Shown: positions 5,677-29,551 of the stretch, piece after piece | Numbering within the stretch: the stretch's first letter is position 1 | Layout: every line of letters starts with the position of its first letter | Assembly (NCBI GenBank): GCA_902580225.1 | Contig: CACHJU010000022.1 | Coordinates: 1-35,527 of the forward strand | DNA: 35,527 nucleotides | Reading direction: 5' to 3' | Source: an uncultured Verrucomicrobiota bacterium | GTDB lineage: Bacteria > Verrucomicrobiota > Verrucomicrobiia > Opitutales > Seribacteraceae | The notes under the pieces: generated by a model | What the model saw: only the letters and a program-made list of their open reading frames with translations | The model's database searches: none | Told to the model about the DNA's origin: nothing | Made by a program: the position numbers and the translations under genes

Positions 5677-5776
5677 TTGCAGATTAGCCAAAAAATGTAC
5701 TTTACTTTACTATTATTAACGAAATATATAATAACCGTTTTATAAACACTTTTAAAAGAAGCTCAAATTAGAACGA

Positions 5777-7903: not shown

Positions 7904-8014
7904 AAGAGTTTCCGTTCATTCAATCTTTCATCAAATCAGGCATTTGCTTGCGGGAAAATACAATCTGATTCAATGTAATATGAACCCGAGTCTGTTTTAA
8001 AACGATCTAACATT

Positions 8015-8572: not shown

Positions 8573-8605
8573 TCCTAATTCACTTTATTCACTCAACTCA
8601 AACCT

Positions 8606-9139: not shown

Positions 9140-9161
9140 TATAACTGGATCATTTCATCTG

Positions 9162-14041: not shown

Positions 14042-14047
14042 TCTTTT

Positions 14048-14066
14048 GAAATATGTTACAAATTTC
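14048..14066 (-). promoter_or_regulatory. Near-perfect 19-bp palindrome upstream of umuD
   Basis: Read on the umuD strand this is GAAATTTGTAACATATTTC, with arms GAAAT.TGT and ACA.ATTTC symmetric about the central base at 14057 and one mismatched position per side. It ends seven bases before the umuD ATG. Its position makes it a candidate SOS/LexA-type operator. No LexA gene is in the window and I do not know the LexA box of this lineage, so the assignment is inferred. Confidence 0.5.
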
Positions 14067-14127
14067 AAAAAAAGCAAGAAAGGATGGCAAATGTGATCTT
14101 AAAAACTTACAACTACGATATATATAT

Positions 14128-14844: not shown

Positions 14845-16294
14845 TCCATCCTCTGTTCCATCTGGTGGGCGGGCTCTGGTTTGGTTTCGCAAAGATCTGA
14901 GATTAGCCGACAACCCATGCCTAGAAGCTGCCTTAAAATCGGGAAAAGAAATCGTACCAGTTTATGTCTGGAATAAGGAGGAAGGGGGTGCATGGAGCCC
15001 GGGTGCAGCCGCCCGTTGGTGGCTCCATCAGGCACTTGCTAGTTTAAACAAAGACATAAAAGATCTAGGCGGTTCTCTCATTTTAGAAAAAGGAAAAGCA
15101 GAAGAAATCCTGCCCCGACTGGCTGAAGAATTACAAGTAGACACTCTTTACTTTGGCAGAACCTACGACCCAGCAGGTCGAGCCACCGAGCAGCTGGTGG
15201 AAACGGCTTTTACAGGTAAACCCGTGTCCCTGAAATCATTTAATACCAGTTTGTTACTGGAACCCTGGGAGATTAAAAATGGTTCCGGTCGCCCCTTTCA
15301 GGTATTTACTCCATATTGGCGAAAATCCCGGGCAGGTATTTATAAGGAACCGTCTGTTTATTCCCTAAATAGTTTGATTTTTCACACTCAAAAAGTATCC
15401 AGCCTCAGTCTCGACGAATTAAACCTTTTACCAAATCATGACTGGCACTTGAAACTTTCCGAACACTGGGATGTTTCCGAGGATGCGGCCCACAAGCTTA
15501 TTCAGCGAACTGCAGATGTGATTACTCATTCTTACGCAACTGCCCGTAACATTCCTTCGAAAGACGGCACATCTCGTCTTTCGCCTTACCTTGCATGGGG
15601 ACTAGTGAGTCCTAGGCAGATTTGCCATGCCGTACTCACCGCGGATAACGAAGGCGGACACCGTGGGGAAAATAAATATCTCGTCGAAATTGGCTGGCGG
15701 GAGTTTTCTTACCAATTACTTTATCATTACCCTCACATCCCGGATCAGCCACTTCGGGAGAAATATTCCCGCTTTCCTTGGCTTGATGATCAACAGTCTT
15801 TACGAGCCTGGCAATTTGGAAACACAGGGTACCCCATGGTAGATGCCGGTATGAGGCAACTCTATGAAACCGGTTGGATGCATAATCGTGTGCGCATGGT
15901 GGTCGCTTCATTCTTGGTTAAACACTTGCTTATTTCCTGGCAAGACGGAGCACGCTGGTTTTGGGACACTCTGGTAGATGCTGATTTGGCCAGCAACACG
16001 CAGGGCTGGCAATGGGCGGCGGGCTGTGGAGCGGATGCTGCACCCTACTTTCGGATATTTAATCCGATCACACAGGGTGAAAAGTTTGACCGAAAAGGAG
16101 AATATGCGAGTAAATGGGTTCCCAGCCTGAAAGATTTGCCAGGAAAATGGATTTTCAAACCTTGGGAAGCTCCACCCGATCTTTTACTGGTAAGTGATGT
16201 TTTCCTTGGTAACAATTACCCTTATCCCTGCGTGGATCATAAAGAAGGAAGAGCCCGAGCCCTTGAAGCACTTTCCTCAATCAAAGAATCCTAG
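14834..16294 (+). CDS. phr: CPD-type deoxyribodipyrimidine photolyase
   Basis: ATG 14834 is chosen because ALVWFRKDLRLADNP, the normal photolyase N-terminus, begins about 14 codons later; the open frame extends further upstream only through the SDR gene. The 486-residue protein has the N-terminal alpha/beta antenna domain (PVYVWNKEEGG, AAARWWLHQALASL) and the C-terminal FAD domain: LSPYLAWGLVSPRQI, EIGWREFSYQLLYHYP, GYPMVDAGMRQLYETGWMHNRVRMVVASFLVKHL, and DADLASNTQGWQWAAGCG. The Asn near FAD N5 and the Trp chain are kept in SNTQGWQW. It splits cyclobutane pyrimidine dimers using blue light. It is coupled to the SDR upstream (11-base overlap) and followed 87 bases later by a second photolyase-family gene. 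Confidence 0.95.
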   Translation: MIADPSSVPSGGRALVWFRKDLRLADNPCLEAALKSGKEIVPVYVWNKEEGGAWSPGAAARWWLHQALASLNKDIKDLGGSLILEKGKAEEILPRLAEELQVDTLYFGRTYDPAGRATEQLVETAFTGKPVSLKSFNTSLLLEPWEIKNGSGRPFQVFTPYWRKSRAGIYKEPSVYSLNSLIFHTQKVSSLSLDELNLLPNHDWHLKLSEHWDVSEDAAHKLIQRTADVITHSYATARNIPSKDGTSRLSPYLAWGLVSPRQICHAVLTADNEGGHRGENKYLVEIGWREFSYQLLYHYPHIPDQPLREKYSRFPWLDDQQSLRAWQFGNTGYPMVDAGMRQLYETGWMHNRVRMVVASFLVKHLLISWQDGARWFWDTLVDADLASNTQGWQWAAGCGADAAPYFRIFNPITQGEKFDRKGEYASKWVPSLKDLPGKWIFKPWEAPPDLLLVSDVFLGNNYPYPCVDHKEGRARALEALSSIKES

Positions 16295-16381
16295 CTTCCA
16301 CATGTTTCGAACAAGATTTTTTTATCGTTCTTCTTCCCCTAGGTTAGCTTCGGTTTCAAAATTCATATTCAATCATTACCA

Positions 16382-17947
16382 ATGAAAACCTCTGTTGTTT
16401 GGTTCCGCAAATCCCTTCGACTTCATGATAATCCGGCCTTGCGGGCGGCATGCCAAAACGATTCTACCGATTCTATTTTACCCCTTTTTATCATTGATCC
16501 TGATGAAGTCGGGCAAAACTTTCAAAAATTAAGTCCCAACCGATTCAGATTTTTAATTGAAAGTTTATTTGACCTCGACCGTCAACTTTCCTCCAAATAC
16601 GACAGCCGATTATTACTTATTCAAGGCAAACCTGAAGATGTCTTTTCTAACATCGAAGACCAAATGGGAAAATCATTCGATTCTCTCTATTGTGAATATT
16701 CCTCCGAACCATGGGAGCGAAAAAAATTATTCTCCGTCCAACATACTCTCTCTGAAAAAAACGAGAATCTTCAGGTTCATTCCTTCGGATCCTTTCATAC
16801 TATTCTTGATCTCGAAAAAGTCATTTCCTCCACCGGTTTCCGGAATCCAAAATCCATGAAGGATATTGATAAGTTATTTTCATCCAATTTTACCAAAAAT
16901 GAGAATGGCTTTTACGAAATTGATAATCCACTTCCTGAACCTGAAAAAATTAAACCTTTTCCCAAAATACCCGAATTTAACTCCTTATCAATCGAGCAAC
17001 TGTCCGATTTGATTTGCGATCATTCTGGTGCTGATATTTTGTCGACAAAATCATATTTTCCGGGCGGAGAAACGGAAGCCCTGTCCCGATTGAATACCAA
17101 AGTTTCAGGACGTGTGGAATATGTTAATTCATTCAGGAAGCCCAAAACCATGTCAACCAACTCATCCGGTGAACCCATGGAACCCACCACCACCGGTTTA
17201 TCCCCTTACTTGAGCACGGGTTGTTTATCGGTTCGTATGCTTTGGAAAGAATGTGAAAAATGCCAACTCCAAGGCGATCATACACTGCCGCCCGAATCGT
17301 TGCACGGGCAACTCATGTTTCGTGAAATGTTTTACCTTCTTTCAAGATCGGTTGAGAACTGGGATCAAGATACATCCAACGAAATGTGTAAAGAAATTGA
17401 GTGGGAAAAATTTTCTCCAGATAAAATGAAAGCCTGGGAGAATGGTCAAACTGGTTTTCCCTTCATTGATGCAATGATGAGACAGCTTCATACTACCGGC
17501 TGGATGCATCACTTGGCCAGGCATGCTGTCTCCTGTTTTTTAACTCGTGGTCAACTTTGGCAGAACTGGAAATTTGGAAGGGATGTGTTTGAACGCAAAC
17601 TCCTCGATAGCGATTGGGCATTAAATAATGGCAATTGGCTTTGGCTGGCCGGGGTCGCTCCCTTTTCCATGCCCTATTTCAGGCTTTACAACCCCTGTCC
17701 TGATTCTAAATCAAGCCTCAATGTGGAAACTAAAACTGCTGAGTTTATCAAATACTGGGTTCCTGAGCTCAAAGATTTTCCCCCTAAATATATTCTGGAA
17801 CCCCATTTGGCTCCTCCTTCAGTTCAATCTGATTCAAACTGCATGATTGGACAGGACTATCCGAATCCCATTGTTAACAGGAAGGAAAGTGCCAAACAGA
17901 ATCTCGCCAAATTTAAAAACAGTCTTGCCCAAAGAAAATCCGCCTAA
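16382..17947 (+). CDS. Animal-type (6-4) photolyase / cryptochrome family protein
   Basis: The 521-residue protein has the photolyase N-terminus (VVWFRKSLRLHDNPALRAA), but its C-terminal half follows the eukaryotic (6-4) photolyase/animal cryptochrome branch: LSPYLSTGCLSVRMLW, LHGQLMFREMFYLLS, GQTGFPFIDAMMRQL, GWMHHLARHAVSCFLTRGQLW, and LLDSDWALNNGNWLWLAG. His377 and His381 in HHLARHAV match the two catalytic histidines of (6-4) enzymes. Asn415, opposite FAD N5, is the photolyase residue, unlike the Asp or Cys of many cryptochromes. No Fe-S cysteine set is visible, so it is not the bacterial FeS-BCP (6-4) type. It has no long cryptochrome tail. Repair of (6-4) photoproducts is the likely role. 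It is in one direction with SDR and phr. Confidence 0.9.
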   Translation: MKTSVVWFRKSLRLHDNPALRAACQNDSTDSILPLFIIDPDEVGQNFQKLSPNRFRFLIESLFDLDRQLSSKYDSRLLLIQGKPEDVFSNIEDQMGKSFDSLYCEYSSEPWERKKLFSVQHTLSEKNENLQVHSFGSFHTILDLEKVISSTGFRNPKSMKDIDKLFSSNFTKNENGFYEIDNPLPEPEKIKPFPKIPEFNSLSIEQLSDLICDHSGADILSTKSYFPGGETEALSRLNTKVSGRVEYVNSFRKPKTMSTNSSGEPMEPTTTGLSPYLSTGCLSVRMLWKECEKCQLQGDHTLPPESLHGQLMFREMFYLLSRSVENWDQDTSNEMCKEIEWEKFSPDKMKAWENGQTGFPFIDAMMRQLHTTGWMHHLARHAVSCFLTRGQLWQNWKFGRDVFERKLLDSDWALNNGNWLWLAGVAPFSMPYFRLYNPCPDSKSSLNVETKTAEFIKYWVPELKDFPPKYILEPHLAPPSVQSDSNCMIGQDYPNPIVNRKESAKQNLAKFKNSLAQRKSA

Positions 17948-17953
17948 TTCCTC

Positions 17954-17992
17954 TTAGATTTCCCATGATAATGGATTGAACTGGAAACCTAA
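17954..17992. terminator. Imperfect hairpin between convergent genes
   Basis: TTAGATTTCC (17954-17963) pairs with GGAAACCTAA (17983-17992) with one mismatch across a 19-base loop. It lies between the second photolyase gene and the converging ligase gene, overlapping the ligase stop codon. A bidirectional terminator is possible but weak. Confidence 0.3.
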
Positions 17993-19641
17993 AATAATAG
18001 TAAATTTCCCTGACGGTCTACATGAATACCATCCACCATTCTTTCTTTCTCATCCATACCGGTAAATCCGCGGATCGTGGACAAAGTGTCTGCATCCTCG
18101 ATCTTTTTGTCAGTCCGCCAGCGATTAATTCTTGGAAATCGCAGGGCCACTCCTGATTTATGTCGACCCGATGAACGGGCTCCCTCAAAGGCAATTTCAA
18201 AAACGAGTTTGGGTTTGACCGATCGAACCGGTCCGAATTTTCCGGTTATATTTTTTCGAATATACCGGTCTACTTTTTCAATCTCAGCATCGGTTAATCC
18301 CGAATAAGCCTTGGCCACTGTTACCAGTTGCTTTTTTTCACCCCATACCGCAAGGGTATAGTCCGAATAAAGATTGGAACGCTTCCCATGTCCTAATTGG
18401 GCACTCACCACCACCATATCAGCAAGATATGGGTCAATTTTCCATTTATACCAACTGCCCTTCATCCTTCCTGCTTCATAGGTTGAATTCTTTTTCTTAA
18501 GCATAAAGCCCTCCACCCCCCGGGCACGAGACTCTTGACGAAGTCTGGATAAAGTGGCCCATGATTTCTCATTCACCAGAGAGGATAGGCCAATCGGAAA
18601 ATGATCGGGCAAAGAAGAGAGAACCTCATCCAATTTTTTTCTTCTATCAGAGAGGGCTAACTTTCTTAAGTCCTTTCCTTCCATCCGCAAAAGATCGTAG
18701 GCCTGAAATCTAACCGGTTCCCGTTTCAGAATGGTTGGTCCCGGTTCTTTCCTTCCAAGCCTTGCTTGCAAACGTGAAAAAGATCGTAGACCTTCCTTTC
18801 CCCAAGCTAGAATTTCACCATCCAAGCAAAGGTCTCCCGGCAACCATTTGCCTGCATCCATGATCTCTGGAAAGGAATGACCCACTGATTCATCTCCTCT
18901 CGACCAAAGCATACAAGCCCCCCCCCGATTAATCAACTGGGCCCGAATTCCATCCCATTTCCACTCCACCTGCCAGGATTTCACTGCCCCCAAACTCTCC
19001 ACCTTTTCCTGCAATTGATGAGCCAGACAAAAGGGATAGGGCTGGCATAAACGACCCTCTTCATTTTCCGGATTAAGGATTTCATCGAGGCTCATTGTCT
19101 CTGGAGTCCATTTTCCAGCCATTCTTTGAGCAATTATAGCCGGTTCAACTCCCCCCACTTTCGCTAAAGCCTTACATAAATTCCCTTTTGAAACTCCCAT
19201 TCTGAATCCACCGGTGAGAAGTTTATGAAATGGAATTAACTCTTTGTCTTCCAGGGAATCCCATGCCTCAAAGATTTTTGCTTTTCGTTCAGCCATATTC
19301 ATCAAAACCATAGGTTTGATATACTTCAGAATAACTTCCTTTAAGCTGGTTACTCCAGTACCACCAGCATTAACTAAGAGTGAAATTGTCTCGGCCAAAT
19401 CCCCAACACGGTCATGGGACTCTTCAATGAGCCATTCAGGTAATCCGGAATGCTCGGAGGCAAACTTACGAAGTTCCTTAGTTTTAATGGCTCCCTTGAT
19501 TCGATTTCCGGCCAGAAACCAGCACGCCCATATTGAATCAACCGGATTGGCCATTTTAAAATATTGAACCAAATGATCTAGTCGAGTATTGGTTTTAGGC
19601 GACTCATCGAGATCGTGAAAAAGTTCGGCAAATCTTTTCAT
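17989..19641 (-). CDS. ATP-dependent DNA ligase
   Basis: The 550-residue protein is an ATP-dependent DNA ligase of the bacterial LigB/LigC-like type found with an mbl-fold exonuclease. An N-terminal DNA-binding helical domain (about 1-200) includes the FHKLLTGGFRMGVSKG segment. Nucleotidyltransferase motif I is WKWDGIRAQ with adenylated Lys228, followed by SRGDE, LDGEILAW, EGFMLKKKNSTYEAGR and WYKWKIDPYLADMVVV (motif V). The OB-fold domain contains YTLAVWG and ends with FPRINRWRTDKKIEDADTL. It overlaps the upstream exonuclease by four bases. The pair is known as the ligase-associated DNA-damage module, usually joined by a DEXH helicase and a phosphoesterase, neither of which is in this window. 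Confidence 0.95.
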   Translation of the reverse strand: MKRFAELFHDLDESPKTNTRLDHLVQYFKMANPVDSIWACWFLAGNRIKGAIKTKELRKFASEHSGLPEWLIEESHDRVGDLAETISLLVNAGGTGVTSLKEVILKYIKPMVLMNMAERKAKIFEAWDSLEDKELIPFHKLLTGGFRMGVSKGNLCKALAKVGGVEPAIIAQRMAGKWTPETMSLDEILNPENEEGRLCQPYPFCLAHQLQEKVESLGAVKSWQVEWKWDGIRAQLINRGGACMLWSRGDESVGHSFPEIMDAGKWLPGDLCLDGEILAWGKEGLRSFSRLQARLGRKEPGPTILKREPVRFQAYDLLRMEGKDLRKLALSDRRKKLDEVLSSLPDHFPIGLSSLVNEKSWATLSRLRQESRARGVEGFMLKKKNSTYEAGRMKGSWYKWKIDPYLADMVVVSAQLGHGKRSNLYSDYTLAVWGEKKQLVTVAKAYSGLTDAEIEKVDRYIRKNITGKFGPVRSVKPKLVFEIAFEGARSSGRHKSGVALRFPRINRWRTDKKIEDADTLSTIRGFTGMDEKERMVDGIHVDRQGNLLLF

Positions 19642-20636
19642 TCTAATTCCTCTCGTTCAAAGACCGACTGATTCAAAACGGATGTGTTGATTCCCTCTTC
19701 AGTAAGAAATCGGCTTAAGGCATCCCCATTCCCATGAGTTAGTTTCACAATCTCAGCTCCGGTTCCACTGATTACATCAACCAAGCCCTTCCAATCAGCA
19801 TGATCTGAAAGAACAAAACCCCGGTCAAAATTTTTTCTTCGGCGCTGACCGCGAATGGCCATCCAACCCGAAGCAAAACCTATCTTTACATTACGGAACT
19901 TTCTGGTCCAGCTGCTGTCTTCAACCGCAGGAGGAGCTATCACGATGGCTCCCGAAAAGTTTTTTTCTCCATTCACTTTTTTAACCTCAGGTAAATGAAC
20001 ACCCGCATTGCGATAATGGTCGAGAAATGAATGAACTGCAGAATGAGCGTATATTGGACCAATATTAGAATCCAGACCGCCCAAAACACGCTGGGCCTTA
20101 CCAAGGGAATAGGCAAATAACATTGATCCATGATCATCTTTCTTATTTTTATCCCACCAATGATTAATTTTTTGATGAATTTTTTCTTCGGGCTGCCATT
20201 GGTAAACAGGAAGACCAAATGTGCATTCTGAAATAAATCCATGGCATGGAACTAGTTCAAAAGATTCACAGGTTCGATCTTTCTGTGGTTTATAATCCCC
20301 GCTTACCACCCAAATTCTTCCATTCACTTCTATTCTTATCTGTGCAGAGCCTAAAATATGTCCAGCAGGATGAAAAGAAACCAGAGCATTCCCGATGGCT
20401 TTTTTTTCTCCAAAGGGAATCGATTCAATATTATTTTTTGATCCAATTCTTGTCTGCAATAAAGATTTACATGGATCAGAACATAAATAATTTCTATGTC
20501 CAACCCTTGCATGATCACTATGTGCATGCGTAATGACGGCCCGTTTCGTGTGACCTCTTGGATCAATGTAAAAATCACCCGCTTCACAATATAAGCCTTC
20601 TTTTCGTACGCTTAAAATTTTATTATCAAGAGACAT
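19638..20636 (-). CDS. Ligase-associated beta-CASP DNA exonuclease
   Basis: The 332-residue protein is a metallo-beta-lactamase/beta-CASP nuclease of the ligase-associated family (SNM1/CPSF-like). The metal site is visible as THAHSDHARVG (HxHxDH) near residue 36-42, with PAGHILGSAQIRIE and WVVSGDYKPQKDRTCE giving further ligands, and GFVLSDHADWKGLVDVI near the C-terminus. YCEAGDFYIDPRG is the characteristic opening. It probably trims damaged DNA ends for the ligase encoded immediately downstream with an ATGA overlap. Its start faces the divergent sigma-factor operon across a 173-base AT-rich region, which must hold promoters for both. Confidence 0.93.
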   Translation of the reverse strand: MSLDNKILSVRKEGLYCEAGDFYIDPRGHTKRAVITHAHSDHARVGHRNYLCSDPCKSLLQTRIGSKNNIESIPFGEKKAIGNALVSFHPAGHILGSAQIRIEVNGRIWVVSGDYKPQKDRTCESFELVPCHGFISECTFGLPVYQWQPEEKIHQKINHWWDKNKKDDHGSMLFAYSLGKAQRVLGGLDSNIGPIYAHSAVHSFLDHYRNAGVHLPEVKKVNGEKNFSGAIVIAPPAVEDSSWTRKFRNVKIGFASGWMAIRGQRRRKNFDRGFVLSDHADWKGLVDVISGTGAEIVKLTHGNGDALSRFLTEEGINTSVLNQSVFEREELE

Positions 20637-20769: not shown

Positions 20770-20785
20770 AATGATCCCAATCATT
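20770..20785. promoter_or_regulatory. Short inverted repeat before the sigma-led operon
   Basis: AATGAT (20770-20775) and ATCATT (20780-20785) are exact reverse complements around CCCA, 24 bases before the sigma gene start. It could be an operator or leader hairpin. With six-base AT-rich arms, chance is also possible. I did not find a convincing sigma-70 consensus promoter here. Confidence 0.28.
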
Positions 20786-20809
20786 ATTTTCCTCGTTATC
20801 TAATACATA

Positions 20810-21754
20810 ATGGTAAAACCAAACACACCAACTAAAACTGATAATGAAAATCCCGACCCAGTCGGAAGATTTATATCGGAACGTTCACGCATGGCACCCC
20901 CAACTAAAGAAGAGTGTGACAAACTGTTTGAGGAAATGTCCAAAGGTTCTGATGAAGCTCGCAAAGAACTGATTGAAAGACATATCCGCTTAGTCGCATC
21001 TATTGCTCTAAAGTTTCGTCAAACAAATGTTCAGATGGAAGACATTATGGCCGAGGGAATTCAAGGTCTTGTGGTTGCTTTAGATAAATTTGACCACACC
21101 CGTGGAATCAAGTTAAGTACCTATGCCGCTTGGTGGATTCGCCAAAGAATACAAAGACTGATTGGAAAAATGTCTGGTGCAGTTGCAGTGCCTCACGATG
21201 TCTCTCAAGGAAAGAGAAAGGAAGGATTAATTCGTGCTGAGTTGCAGGTTGAGTTTGGCCGAAATCCAACCGATGACGAAGTAAACCTAGCTTTAGGACA
21301 AGATAGAAATTTAACTAACCGTGTCAAATTTGCACCTACTAGTTCTCTTTCATTAGACGAACCACTAAACGACGAAACTGACAGTACTTTAGCTGATATG
21401 ATGACCGCTGAAGAGGAGCTTACTCAATCTTACAGAGAAGATGGTTCTTTGTCAGATGATATCGGAGTTGCTCTTTCATTCCTTGACCAAAGAGAAAGAA
21501 AAGTGCTAAGTATGCGATTTGGCATGGAGAAAGGAGAGTCCATGAAATTAGACGACATTGCAGACTCTATGAATGTATCCGGGGAACGAGTTCGACAATT
21601 AGAATCTCTCGGTTTAAGAAAACTTCGAGCCGTCCTTTTACAAAACGGGAAAATAGATTTCAGAAAATTAGATCAACTAGTAAGTACAGATTTACGTGGC
21701 AAAACCAAGATGAGTCCTTTAGAACTCTCTCTCATTTTGGACCCTGCTACGTAA
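20810..21754 (+). CDS. Alternative sigma-70 family RNA polymerase sigma factor
   Basis: The 314-residue protein has region 1.2 (DPVGRFISERSRMAPPTKEE), region 2 (RKELIERHIRLVASIALKFRQ, EDIMAEGIQGLVVALDKFD, KLSTYAAWWIRQRIQRLIG), region 3 (RKEGLIRAELQVEFGRNPTDDEV) and region 4 (LSFLDQRERKVLSMRFGM, LDDIADSMNVSGERVRQLESLGLRKLR). It is a group 2/3 sigma factor, longer than ECF factors, without the large acidic region 1.1 of RpoD. A C-terminal tail of about 35 residues follows region 4. The stop is separated from the desaturase ATG by two bases, so it is the first gene of a nine-gene operon and probably controls that operon or itself. The inducing signal is unknown; heat or singlet-oxygen type stress would be the first guess. 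Confidence 0.9.
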   Translation: MVKPNTPTKTDNENPDPVGRFISERSRMAPPTKEECDKLFEEMSKGSDEARKELIERHIRLVASIALKFRQTNVQMEDIMAEGIQGLVVALDKFDHTRGIKLSTYAAWWIRQRIQRLIGKMSGAVAVPHDVSQGKRKEGLIRAELQVEFGRNPTDDEVNLALGQDRNLTNRVKFAPTSSLSLDEPLNDETDSTLADMMTAEEELTQSYREDGSLSDDIGVALSFLDQRERKVLSMRFGMEKGESMKLDDIADSMNVSGERVRQLESLGLRKLRAVLLQNGKIDFRKLDQLVSTDLRGKTKMSPLELSLILDPAT

Positions 21755-21756
21755 AT

Positions 21757-22677
21757 ATGTCTTCTTCACTATCTAAATGGGTGTGTCCACCCCCGGAAAC
21801 TAACGAAGAACCTCAAGGTGCTGAGGGTAAAGTAGAATGGTTTAGGTGTTTGCCTTACATAATCATTCATTTATTGGCTTTGGGTGCATTCTTTTTCCCT
21901 GTTTCCACTGCCTGTATTGTGTTTGCAATCATTTCCTACAGTGCACGCATGTTTTCAATCACTGCTTTCTACCATCGGTATTTTTCGCATCGTACTTTTA
22001 AAACATCTAGAGTTGTACAATTCATTGGTGCATTTGTTGCATGTAGTTCAGGGCAACGTGGCCCATTATGGTGGGCTGCACATCACCGTAGGCACCATAG
22101 ACATTCTGACACTGACAAAGATGTTCACTCTCCGCATAGTAGAAGTCTATTTTGGAGTCATACTTTATGGTTTATGACTGAATATTCAGTTCCCACTTTT
22201 TTGAAAGAAGTTCGCGACTTAACTAAATTTAAAGAACTTATTTTCCTAAATCGTTATGACTGGATACCGTTGGTCCTTCTTGGTCTATTATGTTATTTCT
22301 TACCGGAATTTACTTGGTTTGCAACCTTGACCGGATTATCCAACATGCAAAGTCTAATGTGGGGATTTTTTGTTCCTACCATACTATTATATCATGCCAC
22401 TTTTGCAGTTAATTCTATCAATCACTTATTCGGAACCCGACAATTTGATACCAAAGATGAAAGTCGTAACAATTGGTTTATTGCTTTGATTGCTTTTGGA
22501 GAAGGTTGGCACAATAACCATCATTTTTATCCTGCTTCAGCTAGACAGGGATTTTTTAAGGGCGAATTTGATATTACTTATTATGGTTTAAAATTCCTGT
22601 CCTTTTTTGGATTGGTTCGCGATCTCCGTCCCGTCCCCGTCTGGGTGAAGGAGAAATCAAACCGACCCTCCTCTTAG
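21757..22677 (+). CDS. Delta-9-type acyl-CoA/acyl-lipid fatty acid desaturase
   Basis: The 306-residue membrane protein has the three histidine boxes of di-iron front-type stearoyl desaturases: HRYFSH near residue 71, HRRHHRHSD near 111 and GWHNNHHFYP near 250. Hydrophobic segments lie at about 33-60, 165-185 and 200-220, giving the usual four-helix cytoplasmic-active-site topology. It would introduce a cis double bond into an acyl chain, providing the unsaturated substrate that CFA-type methyltransferases need. It begins two bases after the sigma-factor stop, and the following FAD oxidoreductase starts nine bases after its own stop. Position in the operon supports joint control of lipid unsaturation and methylation. 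Confidence 0.94.
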   Translation: MSSSLSKWVCPPPETNEEPQGAEGKVEWFRCLPYIIIHLLALGAFFFPVSTACIVFAIISYSARMFSITAFYHRYFSHRTFKTSRVVQFIGAFVACSSGQRGPLWWAAHHRRHHRHSDTDKDVHSPHSRSLFWSHTLWFMTEYSVPTFLKEVRDLTKFKELIFLNRYDWIPLVLLGLLCYFLPEFTWFATLTGLSNMQSLMWGFFVPTILLYHATFAVNSINHLFGTRQFDTKDESRNNWFIALIAFGEGWHNNHHFYPASARQGFFKGEFDITYYGLKFLSFFGLVRDLRPVPVWVKEKSNRPSS

Positions 22678-22686
22678 AACTTTGCC

Positions 22687-23925
22687 GTGAAAATAGCGGT
22701 TGTTGGATCTGGTATATCCGGTCTTATTTGTGCCTATTTGCTACACAAAAATTATAATGTCACCCTATTTGAAGGAGGGGCTAAGCCGGGTGGTCATGTT
22801 AATACCGTGAAGACGCACGGGACATCAGGAACTTTCCAAGTCGACACCGGTTTTATTGTATTTAACCGTGAAAACTACCCAAATTTTGTCCGCCTGCTCG
22901 ATCAGTTAAATGTTCCATCTCATTCAACCCGGATGGGATTTTCGGTACAGGCCAAAGACTTGAATCTTGAATACAGTGGAGAAAGTGCAATCGGACTCTT
23001 CGGACATTTCCGTAATCTGATTGATCCCAAACACTGGAACATGGTTCGGGATATTTTACGTTTTCACAAAATTGCCAAAGAAAACAGAATTAGGGATGAA
23101 ACCGTGGACTCTTTTTTAAAAAAGCATAAATTTGGTCATCGGTTTTCGGAATATTTCCTTCTTCCCCTAGGATCGGCACTTTGGTCTTGCTCCACCAGTC
23201 AATTTGGTAAATTTCCCATGGAGTTTGTCTCCGAATTCCTTTCCAATCATCAAATGTTGCAGGCCAACAACCGGCCCATTTGGCGTGTGGTCAAAGGAGG
23301 TTCCCGTACTTATGTGGACAAACTGGTGGAAATTCTTGGCGAACGACTCAAAGTAAATACTCCCATTAAAAATGTTCAGCGGGTTGACAATCAGGTCAAA
23401 CTGATCTTATCGGATGGAACCGGGCAGACTTTTGATGAAGTCATCCTAGCCTGTCATGCGGACCAGTCGCTTCGCATGCTCTGTTCCCCAACCTCCGAAG
23501 AAACTAAACTTTTAAAAAGTTTCCCCTATCAGGCAAATCAAATTACCCTTCATAGTGATGATTCAGTGATCCCCAAAAGAAAATCGGCCCGAGCGAGTTG
23601 GAATGCATACTTGCCCCAAAAGAGCAGCTCTGATGCTCTGGTTACCTACGATATGAACATTTTACAGAGTTTACCTACCAAGGAACCCTTCTGTGTTTCT
23701 TTGAACCAGCAAGACCTGCTCGACCCCAATTTGATCCACGGGCAGTACAATTTTTCTCACCCAACTTATCATCCCGGCCGAAAAGACGCTCAGAGCAGAC
23801 ATTCTTCATTCATCCGTAATCATGGAATTTCACTCTGCGGGGCCTACTGGGGATACGGATTTCATGAAGACGGATTAAACAGCGGGCTCCGAGTCTGCGA
23901 AGCTTTTGGGGAAAGACTTGAGTGA
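22687..23925 (+). CDS. FAD-dependent oxidoreductase (COG2907-like, lipid-associated)
   Basis: The start is GTG. The 412-residue protein opens with KIAVVGSGISGLICAYLL, the FAD Rossmann GxGxxG, then TLFEGGAKPGGHVNTV, where Glu binds ribose and GGH replaces the usual GGR. QVDTGFIVFNRENYPNF is characteristic of the COG2907 group, which is regularly found before DUF1365 and CFA-family methyltransferase genes. YWGYGFHEDGLNSGLRVCEAFG is the C-terminal FAD-contacting end. Homologous flavoproteins take part in making furan or methylated fatty acids in bacteria. A desaturase or reductase step on a methylated acyl chain is therefore the best guess. It overlaps DUF1365 by four bases (GTGA). Confidence 0.92.
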   Translation: MKIAVVGSGISGLICAYLLHKNYNVTLFEGGAKPGGHVNTVKTHGTSGTFQVDTGFIVFNRENYPNFVRLLDQLNVPSHSTRMGFSVQAKDLNLEYSGESAIGLFGHFRNLIDPKHWNMVRDILRFHKIAKENRIRDETVDSFLKKHKFGHRFSEYFLLPLGSALWSCSTSQFGKFPMEFVSEFLSNHQMLQANNRPIWRVVKGGSRTYVDKLVEILGERLKVNTPIKNVQRVDNQVKLILSDGTGQTFDEVILACHADQSLRMLCSPTSEETKLLKSFPYQANQITLHSDDSVIPKRKSARASWNAYLPQKSSSDALVTYDMNILQSLPTKEPFCVSLNQQDLLDPNLIHGQYNFSHPTYHPGRKDAQSRHSSFIRNHGISLCGAYWGYGFHEDGLNSGLRVCEAFGERLE

Positions 23926-24683
23926 AAAGTTCGCTTTATTTTGGCGAAGTGCGCCATCAGAGAAAAGGCCCCAAAAGACACGCTTTTAAATACGATGTTT
24001 TCATGTGCCATCTGTTCATCGATGAAATCAGAGAAGTCTTCGAAAAAAAATGGTTTTGGTCAGCCAATCAAAAAAATCTCTCCTCCTATCAACGGTCTGA
24101 CTATCACAAACCTGAAATCAAGGATTTAGCTTCTGCGGTTCGATCCACCATGGGCAAACAACTGGGTCGTTCAATCGAGGGTCCAGTTTCTATTATTACT
24201 CATCTGCGCACCTTTGGCTATTGTTTCAACCCAGTTTCATTCTACTACTGCTGGGATCAAGAAAAAACAATACCGCATGCGATGATGACTGAAATTACCA
24301 ATACTCCCTGGCATGAACGTTATTCAAAATGTTTTGATTTACAGGATCTGGGAAAAGAAAAATCCACCCATAATTTCAAAAAGGAATTCCATGTTTCACC
24401 CTTTATCGGAATGGATGTAAATTATGACTGGCATTTTCACGGTCCTGCTGAAAAATTCAAAGTGGATATGGTTCTGTGCGAAGATCAAAAAATTATCTTC
24501 AGTGCCCACCTGAACCTTACCCATAAAATCTTTAACCTACAAAATTCGACCTGGGCACTCATTCGCTTTCCCCTGCTTACTTTTAGAATTATATTCGGAA
24601 TTTATTGGCATGCCCTTCTACTTCGTTTAAAAGGTTGTCGTTTTTATCCACATCCCAAAAATTCTATTTCCCCAACACAATGA
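23922..24683 (+). CDS. DUF1365 family protein
   Basis: The GTG start overlaps the stop of the FAD oxidoreductase gene by four bases. The 253-residue protein has DUF1365 hallmarks: YFGEVRHQRKGPKRHAFKY at the start, then ITHLRTFGYCFNPVSFYYCWD, EITNTPWHERY, and KEFHVSPFIGMDVNYDWHF. A C-terminal hydrophobic stretch (ALIRFPLLTFRIIFGIYWHALLLRL) suggests membrane association. Family function is unknown biochemically, but the gene is nearly always between the flavoprotein and a CFA-type methyltransferase, and members affect unusual fatty acid formation. It is joined to the following methyltransferase by an ATGA overlap. Confidence 0.93.
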   Translation: MKSSLYFGEVRHQRKGPKRHAFKYDVFMCHLFIDEIREVFEKKWFWSANQKNLSSYQRSDYHKPEIKDLASAVRSTMGKQLGRSIEGPVSIITHLRTFGYCFNPVSFYYCWDQEKTIPHAMMTEITNTPWHERYSKCFDLQDLGKEKSTHNFKKEFHVSPFIGMDVNYDWHFHGPAEKFKVDMVLCEDQKIIFSAHLNLTHKIFNLQNSTWALIRFPLLTFRIIFGIYWHALLLRLKGCRFYPHPKNSISPTQ

Positions 24684-25948
24684 ATAACCCAACGGCACAA
24701 CATGCCACAAAATTCACCCTGTCCGAAAATGGAAATGCCGGATTTTGGGAATGTGCCCTGCTTGGCCAGTTAAAAAAAATTGATCAGGGTGCACTGACAG
24801 TCAAAATGGGAAAAAGAAAACTAACTCTAGGAACCCCCTCGAGTACCAGCATCTCTGCGGGTATTGAAATAACCGACAAATCCTTTTTTCGAAAATCCTG
24901 CTTGGGGGGATCTCTTGGCGTAGCTGACAGTTACGCGGACGGGGACTGGGAAACAGATGATCTGGTCAGCGTCTTCCGCCTCTTTCTCCAAAATCAGGAT
25001 GTGATGGATGGTATGGAAAGCGGCTGGGCTTCCCTGCTCAACCGAATGGCAAGGTGGGGCTATTTAGTAGGCCAAAAAAATACCCGCAAGGGAAGCCGGA
25101 AAAACATCGCCCTTCACTACGACTTGGGAAACGATTTCTATGAACTCATGCTCGACCCGACCATGACCTATTCGTGCGGAATTTTCGAATCTGCCCAAAC
25201 TACTCTGGAACAAGCTTCGCTAGCAAAATATGACCGTATTATTGAACAGCTTGATATACAACCCCACCACCAAGTTCTGGAAATTGGATGCGGTTGGGGC
25301 GGATTTGCCCATCGACTGGCCGAACGGACTCAAGCCAGGCTCACCGCCACCACGATTTCGGAACGCCAATTTGAATATGCCCAAAACCGGATTCAAAAAA
25401 ACGGATTCGATGACCGAGTTTCTATTATCAAAAAAGACTACCGGGATTTGGTCGGCCAGTTTGACCGTATCGTTTCCATTGAAATGATCGAAGCGGTGGG
25501 CCATGAATTCCTCCCCGCCTATTTTTCTCAAGTCTCTGACCTTCTACTTTACAATGGAGCCGCTTTGATTCAGGGAATCACCATGCCCGACCACCGCTAT
25601 GGACAATACCTCAAGGAAGTCGATTATATCCGCACCCGTGTCTTTCCGGGAAGTTGTGTGCCCTCCGCCTCCGCAATGATTGAAGCTGCGGTCAAAGAAT
25701 CAAATCTGCGCCCAGCCGACCTTTACGATTTTGGATACCATTATTCCCGTACCCTACGGGAGTGGCGTCTGCGCTTCCAGGAAAACGAAAACCAGATTAA
25801 AGAACTGGGCTATGACGAACATTTCCGCAGGGCATGGCTCTATTACCTCAGTTATTGCGAAGCCGGGTTTGAGGAAGGCTACACCGGGGATATTCATCTC
25901 CTGCTCGCCAAGCCGGAATGCAAACTATGCCGCGGTTTTCCAAAATGA
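24680..25948 (+). CDS. CFA-synthase-family S-adenosylmethionine methyltransferase (first)
   Basis: ATG 24680 overlaps the DUF1365 stop (ATGA), and a longer frame to 24605 lies inside that gene. The 422-residue protein has the cyclopropane fatty acid synthase layout: an N-terminal domain (about 1-140) with SLGVADSYADGDWETDDLV, then NIALHYDLGNDFYELMLDPTMTYSCGIFE, the SAM motif VLEIGCGWGGFAHRLAE, and SIEMIEAVGHEFLPAYFSQV. The end has SYCEAGFEEGYTGDIHLLLAKP. It transfers a methylene or methyl group from SAM to the double bond of a phospholipid acyl chain. Whether the product is cyclopropane or a methylated precursor (as for furan or 10-methyl fatty acids) cannot be read directly, but the neighbouring flavoprotein favours the second. 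Confidence 0.92.
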   Translation: MNNPTAQHATKFTLSENGNAGFWECALLGQLKKIDQGALTVKMGKRKLTLGTPSSTSISAGIEITDKSFFRKSCLGGSLGVADSYADGDWETDDLVSVFRLFLQNQDVMDGMESGWASLLNRMARWGYLVGQKNTRKGSRKNIALHYDLGNDFYELMLDPTMTYSCGIFESAQTTLEQASLAKYDRIIEQLDIQPHHQVLEIGCGWGGFAHRLAERTQARLTATTISERQFEYAQNRIQKNGFDDRVSIIKKDYRDLVGQFDRIVSIEMIEAVGHEFLPAYFSQVSDLLLYNGAALIQGITMPDHRYGQYLKEVDYIRTRVFPGSCVPSASAMIEAAVKESNLRPADLYDFGYHYSRTLREWRLRFQENENQIKELGYDEHFRRAWLYYLSYCEAGFEEGYTGDIHLLLAKPECKLCRGFPK

Positions 25949-26475
25949 GTCCGAGGCTTTCATTCTTCACGGACTTGGTTATTTTTCAATGTGCATGGTT
26001 CGCTTGTGTACTCGCCACAGTCAGTCCAATCCCTTACCTCCTTCCTGCTATTGGTACCCTTTTGGTGTTAATTCGTTCAATCTCAACAAGGGGAATTCGT
26101 CAGGTTCTTCCATTCACTCTGGCATGCCTTTTCCTTGGCATCCTTGGCGATGGCACCCTAGTCTACCTAAATCTTTTAATTTTCGAACCTTATCCAGATC
26201 TCTTTGGAGCCCCGCTTTGGATGATTGCCCTTTGGATTAATTTTGGACTCATGCTTCGGCCCCTCTTCACCTGGTTTCTAGAAAATTTCTTACGCTCCAT
26301 TATCGGATTCTCCCTCGGTGGAGTGGTTGCCTATTATTCCGGTCAAAAATTGGGAGTGCTTACCTTTGTCACTGATTTTAATTCTCATATTGGAGTGGCT
26401 CTTGAATGGGCGTTCGCAGGGATTATTCTTCACTTTATCCACCTAAAATTTCCATCGGTTGAATCCTCCCAATGA
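25945..26475 (+). CDS. DUF2878 family membrane protein
   Basis: ATG 25945 overlaps the methyltransferase stop by four bases, matching its operon neighbours; in-frame ATGs at 25918 and 25930 are alternatives. The 176-residue protein has about four to five membrane segments and the DUF2878 motif APLWMIALWINFGLMLRPLF, followed by GFSLGGVVAYYSGQKLGVL. The role is unknown. Members repeatedly occur with DUF1365, CFA-family and photolyase genes in light-responsive clusters, which is also the case here. It is joined by an ATGA overlap to DUF1295 downstream. It may hold or present lipid substrates in the inner membrane. Confidence 0.85.
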   Translation: MSPRLSFFTDLVIFQCAWFACVLATVSPIPYLLPAIGTLLVLIRSISTRGIRQVLPFTLACLFLGILGDGTLVYLNLLIFEPYPDLFGAPLWMIALWINFGLMLRPLFTWFLENFLRSIIGFSLGGVVAYYSGQKLGVLTFVTDFNSHIGVALEWAFAGIILHFIHLKFPSVESSQ

Positions 26476-27263
26476 GCACAATCGAACTTTTAATCTATGG
26501 ACAAGTCGGGGCATCAATTCTGATGTTCTTTGCCTGGATTCATGCACTCGTCATAAAAAATACATCCTATGTAGATGCACTCTGGGGCTATGGCGTCGGA
26601 ATTCTCGGATTTATTTTCCTAACCCTGGCAACTGACAATTGTGATCCCGCAAGACTGGCTCTACTAAAAGCCCTTTTGATTACCTGGTCCGTCCGGCTGG
26701 GAACTTATTTACTGAAAAGATGCCTGGGCAAAACCGAAGATGCCCGCTATGCCTATCTGCGTGAATACATGGGCAAAAAAGCCAATCTTGGATTCTTTAT
26801 TTTTTTCCAAATTCAGGCTTTCTGGGTGGTTCTTTTTGCATCCCCTTTTCTTATTCTGGTCCGAAATCCAAATCCGATTAATTCCATGGATCACATTGGT
26901 CTGATCATCTGGCTGATTGGATTCAGTGGAGTCCACATTGCGGACAAACAACTCAAAATATTTAAATCTCAGCCCGACTGTACCCGTGCCGATGTATGCA
27001 GTACCGGACTTTGGAAATATTCAAGACACCCCAATTATTTTTTCGAATGGGTTCTTTGGATTAGCTATATTTTCCTTGGCTGGCAGGCACCACTTGGCGA
27101 ATGGCTTCTTCTCATTCCAGTCATTTTATATATTTTTCTGAGTAAAATAACCGGAGTTCCCTTTGTGGAGGCAAGGAAACTGGAAGCAAGTGGCAAGGAA
27201 TATGAATCTTACATCCAACAAACCAATTCTTTTTTTCCAGGTCTTCCAAAAAATAAAACATAA
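26472..27263 (+). CDS. DUF1295 / steroid 5-alpha-reductase-like membrane protein
   Basis: The 263-residue protein has six or so membrane segments and the C-terminal signature of the DUF1295/steroid 5-alpha-reductase superfamily: GLWKYSRHPNYFFEWVLWISY, where Arg-His-Pro-Asn-Tyr and the Glu bind NADPH, and VPFVEARKLEASGKEYESYIQQTNSFFP at the end. YVDALWGYGVG is the conserved N-terminal motif. Relatives reduce carbon-carbon double bonds in sterols or lipids. Between two CFA-family enzymes it could reduce a methylene intermediate or control unsaturation. ATGA overlap upstream; three bases to the next start. Confidence 0.92.
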   Translation: MSTIELLIYGQVGASILMFFAWIHALVIKNTSYVDALWGYGVGILGFIFLTLATDNCDPARLALLKALLITWSVRLGTYLLKRCLGKTEDARYAYLREYMGKKANLGFFIFFQIQAFWVVLFASPFLILVRNPNPINSMDHIGLIIWLIGFSGVHIADKQLKIFKSQPDCTRADVCSTGLWKYSRHPNYFFEWVLWISYIFLGWQAPLGEWLLLIPVILYIFLSKITGVPFVEARKLEASGKEYESYIQQTNSFFPGLPKNKT

Positions 27264-27266
27264 AAA

Positions 27267-28307
27267 ATGAGCCTGACCAATTTTCTGATCGACCTTGCCG
27301 AACGCGGACTTGTACCTGATTTTATGATCCGGGCAGGCATTCGGAACCTATGTCGGAAACGCCTGAAACAATGTAAGTCCACAGACTGTGAGGCGAACGC
27401 CGAACTCGCGGAAAAATATATTGCCGATTCGGATGCCTCCCCCATGGCAGTCCTCACGGAAAAGGCGAATCAACAACATTATGAAGTACCGTCGGAATTT
27501 TACCGGCATGCTCTGGGTAAAAATTTTAAATACAGTTGCTGCTATTATGATTCAAAAAATTCTTCGCTGGACGATGCAGAGGACCGGGCTCTTGAATTAA
27601 CCTGCGAGCATGCAAAACTGAAAAACGAACTGGATATTCTTGAACTCGGTTGCGGTTGGGGTTCTCTATCCTTATGGATGGCAAAAAACTTCCCCGAATC
27701 AAAAATTACCTCGATTTCCAATTCAAACTCGCAGCGGATATATATTATGGAACAGGCAAGAATCCGTAGCCTGAAAAACCTCACTGTTTATACCGAGGAC
27801 ATCAATGAATTTGAAACGGATTCCAGCTTTGACCGGGTGGTCTCGGTCGAAATGTTCGAACATGTAAGAAATCACCGCGAATTATTCAACCGTATTCACG
27901 GCTGGCTCAAACCCGGGGGAAAACTCTTCACTCATGTGTTCTGCCACCGCTCCACCTCCTACCCCTTTGATGTCGAAGGTGAGGACGATTGGATGTCCAA
28001 ACACTTTTTCAGCGGAGGTACCATGCCCGCGGACGAGCTTTTTATTCGAATCTCCGGCCAAATGGAACTGGAACACCGATGGAGATGGTCCGGTGAACAT
28101 TATGCCAAGACATCCGAAGACTGGGTGATCAATATTGATAATGCCCGGGCCGAAATTCTTAAATTGTTCAATCAGGATTTGTCCATGGGCGAGGCCCATC
28201 GTACCTATTACCGTTGGCGTATCTTCTTCCTTGCCTGTGCGGAGACTTTTGGTTTTCGAAATGGACAGGAATGGTGGGTCAGTCATTACTTATTTAAAAA
28301 ACCATGA
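27267..28307 (+). CDS. CFA-synthase-family methyltransferase (second, shorter)
   Basis: This 346-residue relative of the first methyltransferase lacks most of the CFA N-terminal domain. After MSLTNFLIDLAERGLVPDFMIRAGIR comes EKANQQHYEVPSEFYRHALGKNFKYSCCYYDS and the SAM motif ILELGCGWGSLSLWMAKNFPES, then RVVSVEMFEHVRNHRELFNRI. It resembles the short CFA-like branch that also includes plant coclaurine-N-methyltransferase-like proteins. The different N-terminus implies a different acceptor from the first enzyme. It lies three bases after DUF1295 and overlaps the PQQ-like gene by four bases. Confidence 0.9.
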   Translation: MSLTNFLIDLAERGLVPDFMIRAGIRNLCRKRLKQCKSTDCEANAELAEKYIADSDASPMAVLTEKANQQHYEVPSEFYRHALGKNFKYSCCYYDSKNSSLDDAEDRALELTCEHAKLKNELDILELGCGWGSLSLWMAKNFPESKITSISNSNSQRIYIMEQARIRSLKNLTVYTEDINEFETDSSFDRVVSVEMFEHVRNHRELFNRIHGWLKPGGKLFTHVFCHRSTSYPFDVEGEDDWMSKHFFSGGTMPADELFIRISGQMELEHRWRWSGEHYAKTSEDWVINIDNARAEILKLFNQDLSMGEAHRTYYRWRIFFLACAETFGFRNGQEWWVSHYLFKKP

Positions 28308-29551
28308 AAACATCTCTTTTTTATCTCACCCTGACCCTGCTTTTTTTCCGACCCGTTCATGGGGAGGAAGTTTCAAATACTTCCGAAAATTGGAATCAGT
28401 GGCGGGGTCCGAACCGGGATGGTTTTATAGCAGAAGGGAGCCCCTGGCCTAAGTTCATTTCAAAGAAAAAATTGGCTCTGAACTGGCGGGAAAAAATCGG
28501 CAAGGGATACCCGGGTCCGGTAACCTCTGACACTCTCGTATTCACCGTCGAAACCAAAGGGAAACTTGAAGTCGTCCGGGCCTTTGACCGTTCAAATGGG
28601 AAACAGAAATGGGAGTCAGAATGGAAGGGCTCAATGAGCGTTCCCTTCTTTGCCTGGAAAAATGGCAGTTGGGTACGCTCCACGCCGATTTTCGATGGAG
28701 AAAATCTGTATGTCGGGGGCATGCGTGACTTTCTAGTCTGTCTAGACGGCCAGTCAGGAAAGATAAAATGGCAGGTCGACTTTATGGAACGCCATGACAG
28801 CCCCCTTCCCGCATTTGGTTTCGTCTGCTCTCCTCTCGTTCATGATGGTTATCTTTATGTTCAGGCAGGTTCCGGATTTAGCAAGTTGGAACGGGAAACC
28901 GGAAAATCCGTCTGGCGAAGCCTAATTCACAAAGGCGATAAGTACGGGAGTGCCTTTTCATCCCCAGTCACTGCGACAATATGTGGAGTTGAACAACTTG
29001 TAGTGCAAACCCGGACAGAACTTACCGGAGTTCATCCGGCGGATGGTAAAGTGCTTTGGAAAAAACCGGTCAAAGCTTATCGCGGCATGAACATTCTCAC
29101 CCCCACCCTTTTGGGAAATTCCATCCTGACCAGCACCTACGGGGGGAAAAGCCTGCTCTTTGATTTGACCAAAAAATCGGATCAATTTTCAATTTCTCAG
29201 AATTGGGAAAATAAACAGGAGGGTTATATGTCCAGTCCGATCGTAATTGACGGGTACGGCTACCTGCACCTCCGAAAACAACGGATTACCTGTCTTGATA
29301 TGAAAAGCGGGGAGACTCAATGGATAAGCAGTGAATCTTTTGGAAAATACATGTCTATGGTTTCAAACGGAAAAGAAATCCTCGCCCTCGATGAAGACGG
29401 CACTCTGTACTTGATCGAGGCCGATCCGGAAAAATTTATCATCAAAGAAAAACGGTCAATTTCCGAATCTCCAACCTGGGCATACCTGGCCGTTTCAGGC
29501 AATCAGTTATTCGTCAGGGAACTGGAGGCCATTGCCTGCTACAGTTGGTAA
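28304..29551 (+). CDS. Exported PQQ-like beta-propeller protein (second)
   Basis: The ATG overlaps the methyltransferase stop by four bases. A signal peptide (KTSLFYLTLTLLFFRPVHGEE) precedes WNQWRGPNRDGF, the same N-terminal motif as the lipoprotein at 9162. Blade repeats include GKQKWESEWKG, GKIKWQVDF, GKSVWRSLI, GKVLWKKPV and GETQWISSES, as in an eight-bladed propeller of 415 residues. There is no lipobox Cys, so it should be free in the periplasm. No dehydrogenase or PQQ-synthesis gene is near. Its place at the end of a lipid-modification operon is unusual; it may sense or transfer electrons, or merely be co-transcribed. A hairpin 8 bases past the stop may end the transcript. Confidence 0.88.
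   Translation: MKTSLFYLTLTLLFFRPVHGEEVSNTSENWNQWRGPNRDGFIAEGSPWPKFISKKKLALNWREKIGKGYPGPVTSDTLVFTVETKGKLEVVRAFDRSNGKQKWESEWKGSMSVPFFAWKNGSWVRSTPIFDGENLYVGGMRDFLVCLDGQSGKIKWQVDFMERHDSPLPAFGFVCSPLVHDGYLYVQAGSGFSKLERETGKSVWRSLIHKGDKYGSAFSSPVTATICGVEQLVVQTRTELTGVHPADGKVLWKKPVKAYRGMNILTPTLLGNSILTSTYGGKSLLFDLTKKSDQFSISQNWENKQEGYMSSPIVIDGYGYLHLRKQRITCLDMKSGETQWISSESFGKYMSMVSNGKEILALDEDGTLYLIEADPEKFIIKEKRSISESPTWAYLAVSGNQLFVRELEAIACYSW

Follow-up and report, generated by a model that had tools for sequence, protein, structure and literature searches.

A nine-gene operon of marine Verrucomicrobiota headed by a sigma factor gene, with a probable role in making an antioxidant furan membrane lipid

The furan-fatty-acid pathway known from Rhodobacter sphaeroides and Rhodopseudomonas palustris comprises UfaM, UfaD, UfaO and FufM, and FufM of R. 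palustris produces a dimethyl furan (PMC7380195). In R. sphaeroides, the RpoE-ChrR pair acts through an extracytoplasmic function (ECF)-type promoter on a second, larger sigma factor, RpoHII, and furan genes belong to the response (PMC6852236). In Stenotrophomonas maltophilia, the matching operon was up 165- to 697-fold without ChrR and back down without RpoEc in RNA-seq performed once; the authors called its enzymes cyclopropane fatty acid (CFA) synthases and wrote of membrane-lipid modification, the word furan being absent from their text (PMC11832516). Here we analyzed a stretch of 35,527 nucleotides (the window), which is contig C22 of a 2.36-Mb genome that is 67% complete. It carries a nine-gene operon with a sigma factor gene in front which, judged from the sequence, probably makes an antioxidant furan membrane lipid in marine Verrucomicrobiota, the phylum to which the Opitutia belong. 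The enzyme set is of a known kind, and the sigma gene in front, the propeller at the end and the regulatory setting look new. No description of this arrangement was recognized in the open-licence literature, consulted mainly as listings, on Verrucomicrobia/Opitutae, furan fatty acids, sigma/ECF factors, the DUF families and Ufa/FufM.

The nine genes are all on the + strand between 20810 and 29551, where a preliminary description of the window had placed them from the open reading frame (ORF) list. Its claim of spacing of at most nine bases, mostly overlaps, also held, three junctions being gaps (2, 9 and 3 bases) and the other five overlaps of 4 bases when UfaM is taken from ATG 24680 and DUF2878 from ATG 25945. 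These two starts are our own choice, and both are probably later than those of the longest ORFs. Inside the operon, no sigma-70-type promoter or terminator rose above shuffled sequence. Pfam agreed with the gene families named earlier, in the order sigma-70 regions 2/3/4, FA_desaturase, amino_oxidase flavoprotein, DUF1365, CMAS, DUF2878, DUF1295, CMAS and PQQ_2 propeller. The genes are as follows.

20810-21754, + strand: larger sigma-70 factor P0001, group 2/3-like (Pfam), with a conserved C-terminal tail beyond region 4
21757-22677, + strand: acyl desaturase with boxes HRYFSH, HRRHH and HNNHH (Pfam FA_desaturase)
22687-23925, + strand: UfaD-like desaturase of the flavin amine-oxidase family (Pfam), positioned as RPA2571 (PMC7380195)
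23922-24683, + strand: UfaO-like DUF1365 protein (Pfam DUF1365; UfaO is a DUF1365 protein)
24680-25948, + strand: UfaM-like methyltransferase of the CFA superfamily with the SIEMIEA signature (Pfam; ORF called from TTG 24605, ATG 24680 preferred)
25945-26475, + strand: DUF2878 membrane protein (Pfam; ORF called from 25918)
26472-27263, + strand: DUF1295 membrane protein (Pfam), with a fold weakly like those of sterol/steroid reductases and ICMT
27267-28307, + strand: FufM-like second methyltransferase, related to coclaurine N-methyltransferase (PDB matches; family survey)
28304-29551, + strand: exported PQQ/BamB-like propeller 2 (Pfam PQQ_2; hydrophobic N-terminus read from the sequence)

A survey of the gene order in relatives, proposed earlier as a check, found it kept in congeners and in the sister clade (loci SP85 and SP241): sigma, desaturase, UfaD, UfaO, UfaM, DUF2878, DUF1295 and FufM follow one another as far as the contigs reach, DUF2878 being undetected in the sister locus L268. 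Propeller 2 stands behind FufM in both sister loci and in 8 of the 11 congener loci with sufficient sequence; it is missing there in the other three, L058, L059 and L060 (genomes G290, G309 and G307).

The predicted enzyme activities fit the furan-fatty-acid pathway. Genes of the same UfaD (flavin), UfaO (DUF1365) and UfaM (CFA-superfamily) families as in R. sphaeroides and R. palustris stand together here, contiguous and in the order of RPA2571-2569 of R. palustris, with a second methyltransferase as FufM; in contrast, fufM lies elsewhere in R. palustris, and the operon here also contains putative desaturase, DUF2878, DUF1295 and sigma genes (PMC7380195). The FufM-like methyltransferase is distinct from UfaM and linked to the ufa genes. 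It had been assigned to the CFA family. It matches Pfam CMAS, but its nearest PDB match is a plant coclaurine N-methyltransferase (6gkv, E 4.3e-66) and not the E. coli CFA synthase (6bqc, E 9.5e-26). LIME1, a member of the coclaurine N-methyltransferase family, is also a plant protein. It is related to FufM (37.87%; PMC10940516). At the position of the CFA-synthase loop SVGMFEH, 78 of 79 FufM-class copies have S[VI]EM[FIM]EH, and all 61 UfaM-class copies have S[IV]EM[IVLF]E[AS], 44 of them being SIEMIEA; neither class has the classical loop of the two solved CFA synthases (5z9o and 6bqc). The AlphaFold model of the DUF1295 protein has a pLDDT of 95.5, and Foldseek finds no PDB match at E ≤ 0.001; the best one, at E 6.8e-3, is to a sterol reductase, a likeness which is a hint only.

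The S. maltophilia operon smlt2375-2367, under RpoEc-ChrR, has the same order of desaturase, FAD oxidoreductase, cytosolic hypothetical protein, CfaS2, two membrane hypothetical proteins and CfaS1. It differs in beginning with a periplasmic hypothetical protein, ending with a lipocalin instead of the propeller, having no larger sigma factor and using ChrR as the anti-sigma factor (PMC11832516). By comparison with the related S. pavanii locus L328, at which a divergent ECF-ChrR pair was found, its hypothetical proteins would be DUF1365, DUF2878 and DUF1295. An Acinetobacter plasmid cluster (L088) shares a photolyase, a lipocalin and desaturase-UfaD-UfaO-UfaM-DUF1295-FufM, and differs in lacking DUF2878 and in having two-component regulators alongside and no sigma factor.

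Co-occurrence was counted around the best 80 of at least 465 confirmed FufM-like relatives from a genome scan. DUF1295 was found at 64 loci, UfaM at 61, UfaD at 60, UfaO at 59, DUF2878 at 43 and the desaturase at 39 (6 of these at 47-62 bits only); some contigs are short, so these counts are minima. One of the 80 loci, L311, scored highest against the Mesorhizobium copy. Genes in the order desaturase-UfaD-UfaO-UfaM-DUF2878-DUF1295-FufM, all on one strand, stand at 16 loci, including Xanthomonas, Stenotrophomonas and Lysobacter, and at 21 if DUF2878 is optional, including Luteimonas and Acinetobacter, which has the order without DUF2878. Opitutia account for 3 of the 16 and 4 of the 21, and the script tested order, not contiguity. 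Hence, of the three components previously thought to be added here, the desaturase and second methyltransferase are shared in the same order with the three full-order genera, and without DUF2878 with Acinetobacter; the propeller stands as new. In Mesorhizobium, RpoE-ChrR, Ufa genes, DUF1295 and a FufM-like gene adjoin one another. One Planctomycetes cluster (L293) likewise has a PQQ propeller, 1.2 kb upstream of it. In the phylum sample, 64 of 288 genomes have a UfaO match.

Right before the sigma start, TGATCY-N16-CGT(T/A) was observed in 18 of the 18 loci with readable upstream DNA (14 from a strict genus search, G324, G311 by eye, and two sister loci; the G300 contig begins inside the gene). 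Over 17 non-redundant loci, with L060 excluded as a near-copy of L059, TGATC and CGT both reach 2.0 bits per base and the spacer 0.27. The TGATC -35, the 16 bases after TGATCN and the CGT -10 core are those of ECF11 RpoE-ChrR promoters, and the -35, spacing and -10 core are identical in published RpoE2 and PSPTO_1043 promoters (PMC4336711, PMC5507510). The -10 reads CGTT in 16 of the 18 loci and CGTA, as in published RpoE-ChrR sites, in the other two (L149 and L354). Related motifs precede two other operons of the window.

20772-20797, + strand: ECF-like promoter before the sigma/lipid genes, TGATCC-N16-CGTT (motif present in all 18 testable loci)
14094-14119, + strand: ECF-like motif TGATCT-N16-CGAT before SDR-photolyases (sequence motif)
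7981-8006, + strand: ECF-like motif TGAACC-N16-CGAT before the SOUL-GPx-propeller operon (sequence motif)

SDR promoters carry the motif in 9 of 12 loci by script and in 11 by eye; the extra two had an ORF start called too far upstream, and the twelfth has a spacer one base longer. By our reading, the window's SDR ORF, called from 14053, also starts too early, and GTG 14128 is the likely start. CGTT or CGAT lies about 8-13 bases from the likely starts (window 20794-20810 and 14116-14128), so leaderless or near-leaderless transcripts are possible. Varying the spacer over the 330,915 bases of the window and 18 loci of the genus gave 34 matches at spacer 16, compared with a mean of 8 (range 1-16) at 24 other spacers. 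A backward-pattern control (3 vs 26 and 10 vs 54 matches) was dropped as evidence because its pattern contains CTAG, which is rare in bacteria; the spacer and Markov controls were used instead.

The same type of motif reaches the S-adenosylmethionine (SAM) cycle. The ahcY gene, directly behind metK (identified by its translated C-terminus), has a TGATC-N16-CGTTAT-type motif in genome G000 (contig C48:8509-8538; L121:5010-5039), which would tie the SAM cycle to this promoter class. It is present in 19 of 24 readable congeners: in 14 of the 16 that have the larger sigma and in 5 of the 8 in which none was detected. This last count argues against the motif depending on the larger sigma alone. As for riboswitches, no Rfam match was obtained at E ≤ 0.1 in four ahcY loci, and none in the window at gathering. 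We placed 42 of the 54 relaxed motif matches in six genomes: besides the sigma and ahcY sites, those in L211, L240 and L242 lie outside ORFs longer than 150 amino acids and the others inside. Four strict matches (L125, L126, L129 and L130) are at neither sigma nor ahcY, and no motif was found upstream of the ligase-associated exonuclease in any of 10 loci. We claim no wider regulon.

P0001 had been described as a group 2/3 sigma factor. Pfam finds sigma-70 regions 2-4 in it; among the 25 best NCBIfam models listed, it passes no RpoD, RpoS or RpoH cut-off (best 179.5 vs 384.5 bits; RpoS 168.4 vs 378.7; RpoH 107.6 vs 323.1). By our reading of the sigma-70 contacts, the recognition residues in its regions 4.2 and 2.4 resemble those of sigma-70. 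Within the genus, 17 of 27 genomes have a sigma factor of this type, as does the sister clade; none was found at E ≤ 1e-45 in 285 other sampled genomes of the class, where up to seven candidates per genome were scored among the matches shown. Nor was one found in 23 neighborhoods outside the genus (including L063, L064 and L067), chosen from genomes with a UfaO match in the phylum sample and their relatives. After region 4, residues 278-314 (window 21641-21751) form the tail RGKTKMSPLELSL, which is also present in the sister clade. Its mean majority is 0.86 over residues 285-310 and 0.81 over 275-314, compared with 0.87 in region 4, in 18 sequences that leave out the G302 copy. The tail could be a protein-binding or degradation signal. 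Separately, two Planctomycetota furan-gene loci (L263:4395-5390 and L331:3559-4557) have a large non-orthologous sigma factor nearby; these were rejected as P0001 orthologs at 63 and 52 bits, far under ortholog scores.

The natural unit is larger than the operon, and consists of an island of about 29 kb starting at an ECF sigma gene at 729.

729-1286, + strand: P0021, an ECF sigma factor with which the island begins (Pfam sigma r2/r4), the best candidate reader of TGATC/CGWT promoters
1380-2609, + strand: putative anti-sigma factor P0022, not ChrR (weak NCBIfam match; follows the ECF)
8015-10484, + strand: SOUL heme protein, glutathione peroxidase (GPx) and PQQ-like propeller 1 (Pfam; syntenic)
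12285-14077, - strand: UmuC- and UmuD-like translesion pair (Pfam; none seen in the sister-clade island)
14053-17947, + strand: SDR, DNA photolyase 1 and photolyase/cryptochrome-like 2 (Pfam/NCBIfam)
17989-20636, - strand: ATP-dependent DNA ligase with its ligase-associated exonuclease, transcribed away from the sigma operon (matches to NF006701/TIGR04120 and TIGR04122 exceed their cut-offs)

The island order is ECF-anti-sigma-DUF2071-...-AlkB-SOUL-GPx-propeller-UmuCD-SDR-photolyases-ligase/exonuclease-sigma-lipid genes. This order is kept in G308, G291 and G324 over the stretch that their contigs cover (HDOD was unseen in G308 and G324) and in G302 without the ligase/exonuclease; the G301 contig stops at SDR. 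In the sister clade (2 loci) the island is compact, with DUF2071, DUF6268, HDOD, AlkB, UmuCD, the second photolyase and the ligase/exonuclease undetected. The photolyases, SOUL, GPx, UmuDC and ligase/exonuclease nearby support a photo-oxidative/UV setting, and with the Ufa families they agree with the earlier view of a membrane-lipid operon of the furan-fatty-acid type in such a setting, light induction and the lipid product being presumed. A second, shorter flavin amine-oxidase-like gene (4714-5691) is conserved in the island, the sister clade included. Propeller 1 (9117-10484) and propeller 2 (28304-29551) are 27% identical; both are exported, and each is the last gene of a motif-led stress operon.

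The ECF P0021 is the best match in the window's genome to the Mesorhizobium RpoE that partners ChrR (80 bits). Of the 27 genus genomes, 18 have an ortholog of it and 15 have both the ECF and the larger sigma; the sister clade has orthologs too. A TTGCGG/TTGCGA block precedes the ECF (window ~680-729) in 8 of 10 loci by eye; this block is unlike the TGATC motif, and the ECF may have its own promoter class. The P0022 gene follows the ECF in all nine relatives' loci holding an ECF ortholog. The protein has no ChrR similarity. Its C-terminal stretch is strongly conserved (WWGAEHAYFS..GKVRCGHFF..ERCVEFAEYD) with no Pfam match and is possibly a new sensor domain, and its single-sequence fold has a pLDDT of 38 overall, confident over about the first 45 residues only. 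The ChrR cupin (PF12973, E ≤ 0.001) was found in 2 of 27 genus genomes, above cut-off in G291 only, and not in the window's genome at its 67% completeness.

We directly observed the genes, their order, their synteny and the promoter motif, and on balance we favor, as reasonably probable, a two-tier photo-oxidative system in which the island ECF drives the larger sigma and lipid enzymes making a dimethyl furan fatty acid. The ECF would presumably be held by the anti-sigma-like P0022 and freed by light-driven oxidative damage. It would then read TGA(T/A)CY-N16-CG(A/T)T before three island operons, those of SOUL-peroxidase-propeller, SDR-photolyases and larger sigma with lipid genes, and the larger sigma, with targets that are putative, would broaden or amplify the response. 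The lipid enzymes would act on phospholipid acyl chains: the desaturase would introduce a cis double bond, UfaM methylate it, UfaD form a methylated diene and UfaO close the furan with O2, after which FufM would add a second methyl, giving a dimethyl furan fatty acid able to quench singlet oxygen. AhcY, whose gene carries the same type of promoter motif, would clear the S-adenosylhomocysteine left by the two methylations. Such a system would resemble the R. sphaeroides cascade, with the larger sigma in the place of RpoHII. It would differ in that the second sigma here is not RpoH by NCBIfam score and lies inside the lipid operon, and the anti-sigma is not ChrR (PMC6852236). More tentatively, marine Opitutia may have an independent cascade parallel to RpoE-ChrR-RpoHII, in which an ECF with a new soluble anti-sigma, its C-terminal part serving as sensor, fires ECF11-like promoters, a lineage-specific tailed sigma is co-translated with a complete saturated-chain-to-dimethyl-furan pathway, and ahcY shares the motif; we put this fuller version somewhat below an even chance.

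Several observations weigh against the two-tier reading. The window alone has 3 motif sites compared with a mean of 0.78 in 200 Markov sequences, of which 9 reach 3, a modest excess. Of nine SOUL operons, six have the motif; these are six of the seven in the genus and neither of the two in the sister clade. The motif is directly before the ECF in none of 10 loci, and both sister loci have an unexplained TGATCC-N16-CGTA 0.5-0.9 kb upstream of the ECF (L353:4803-4828 and L354:14332-14357). In a tree with an unresolved backbone, the island ECF is placed in a clade of its own and not within ECF11, and its best NCBIfam matches are PRK12519/SigK types, under their cut-offs. P0022 is a putative anti-sigma by a sub-threshold NCBIfam match (residues 9-69, 26.5 bits, cut-off 100). 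The ahcY motif is kept without the larger sigma in G301, which has the ECF, and in G304, G297, G294 and G303, which have neither; another motif reader may therefore exist. Three of these four are 57-70% complete and G303 is 92% complete, and the G297 contig is cut inside ufaO. The Ufa/FufM labels were given by family and gene order, and neither R. sphaeroides nor Rhodopseudomonas is among the best 80 FufM-like relatives.

The preliminary description had the operon controlled by its own larger sigma. On such a model the larger sigma would itself read the TGATC/CGWT promoter and leave the ECF with other targets. The sigma gene and the motif do occur together at all 18 testable loci, a sigma co-translated with the genes it controls would form a simple positive loop, and the motif is absent just before the ECF. 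However, the promoter is of the ECF type known from RpoE-ChrR, the island opens with an ECF/anti-sigma-like pair, the region 4.2/2.4 recognition residues resemble those of sigma-70 by our reading, and the ahcY motif is found in genomes without a detected larger sigma; the claim was not upheld, and we consider self-control quite unlikely. Alternatively, a different ECF could read the motif, with the island merely a target. For this speak the four genomes that keep the ahcY motif with neither island ECF nor larger sigma, and the further ECF-like match in 26 of 27 genus genomes (all but G292). Yet in 8 of the 9 genomes compared, the top RpoE-like match is the island ECF, it is syntenic with the motif operons, sister clade included, and three of those four genomes are substantially incomplete, which leaves this explanation rather unlikely.

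It is also conceivable that the product is a methylated or cyclopropane chain and not a furan, with UfaM and FufM relatives of CFA type and DUF1295 reducing an intermediate. Both methyltransferases match CMAS, DUF1295 (at 64 of the 80 FufM-like loci) weakly resembles membrane sterol reductases (E 6.8e-3 only), and the S. maltophilia authors name CFA synthases and never furan (PMC11832516). On the other hand, the operon has UfaO and UfaD, arranged as in the R. palustris genes that were tested, and the UfaM-class loops lack the His of the two solved CFA synthases, and we judge such a product improbable.

On the two-tier reading, photoprotection by furan fatty acids would reach into marine Verrucomicrobiota, working there through a different sensor and a sigma cascade. 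The S. maltophilia lipid operon may also make furan fatty acids, since the same seven-gene order stands there under RpoE-ChrR (PMC11832516). With the whole predicted pathway in one operon, the locus would be a compact natural construct for learning the roles of DUF1295 and DUF2878.

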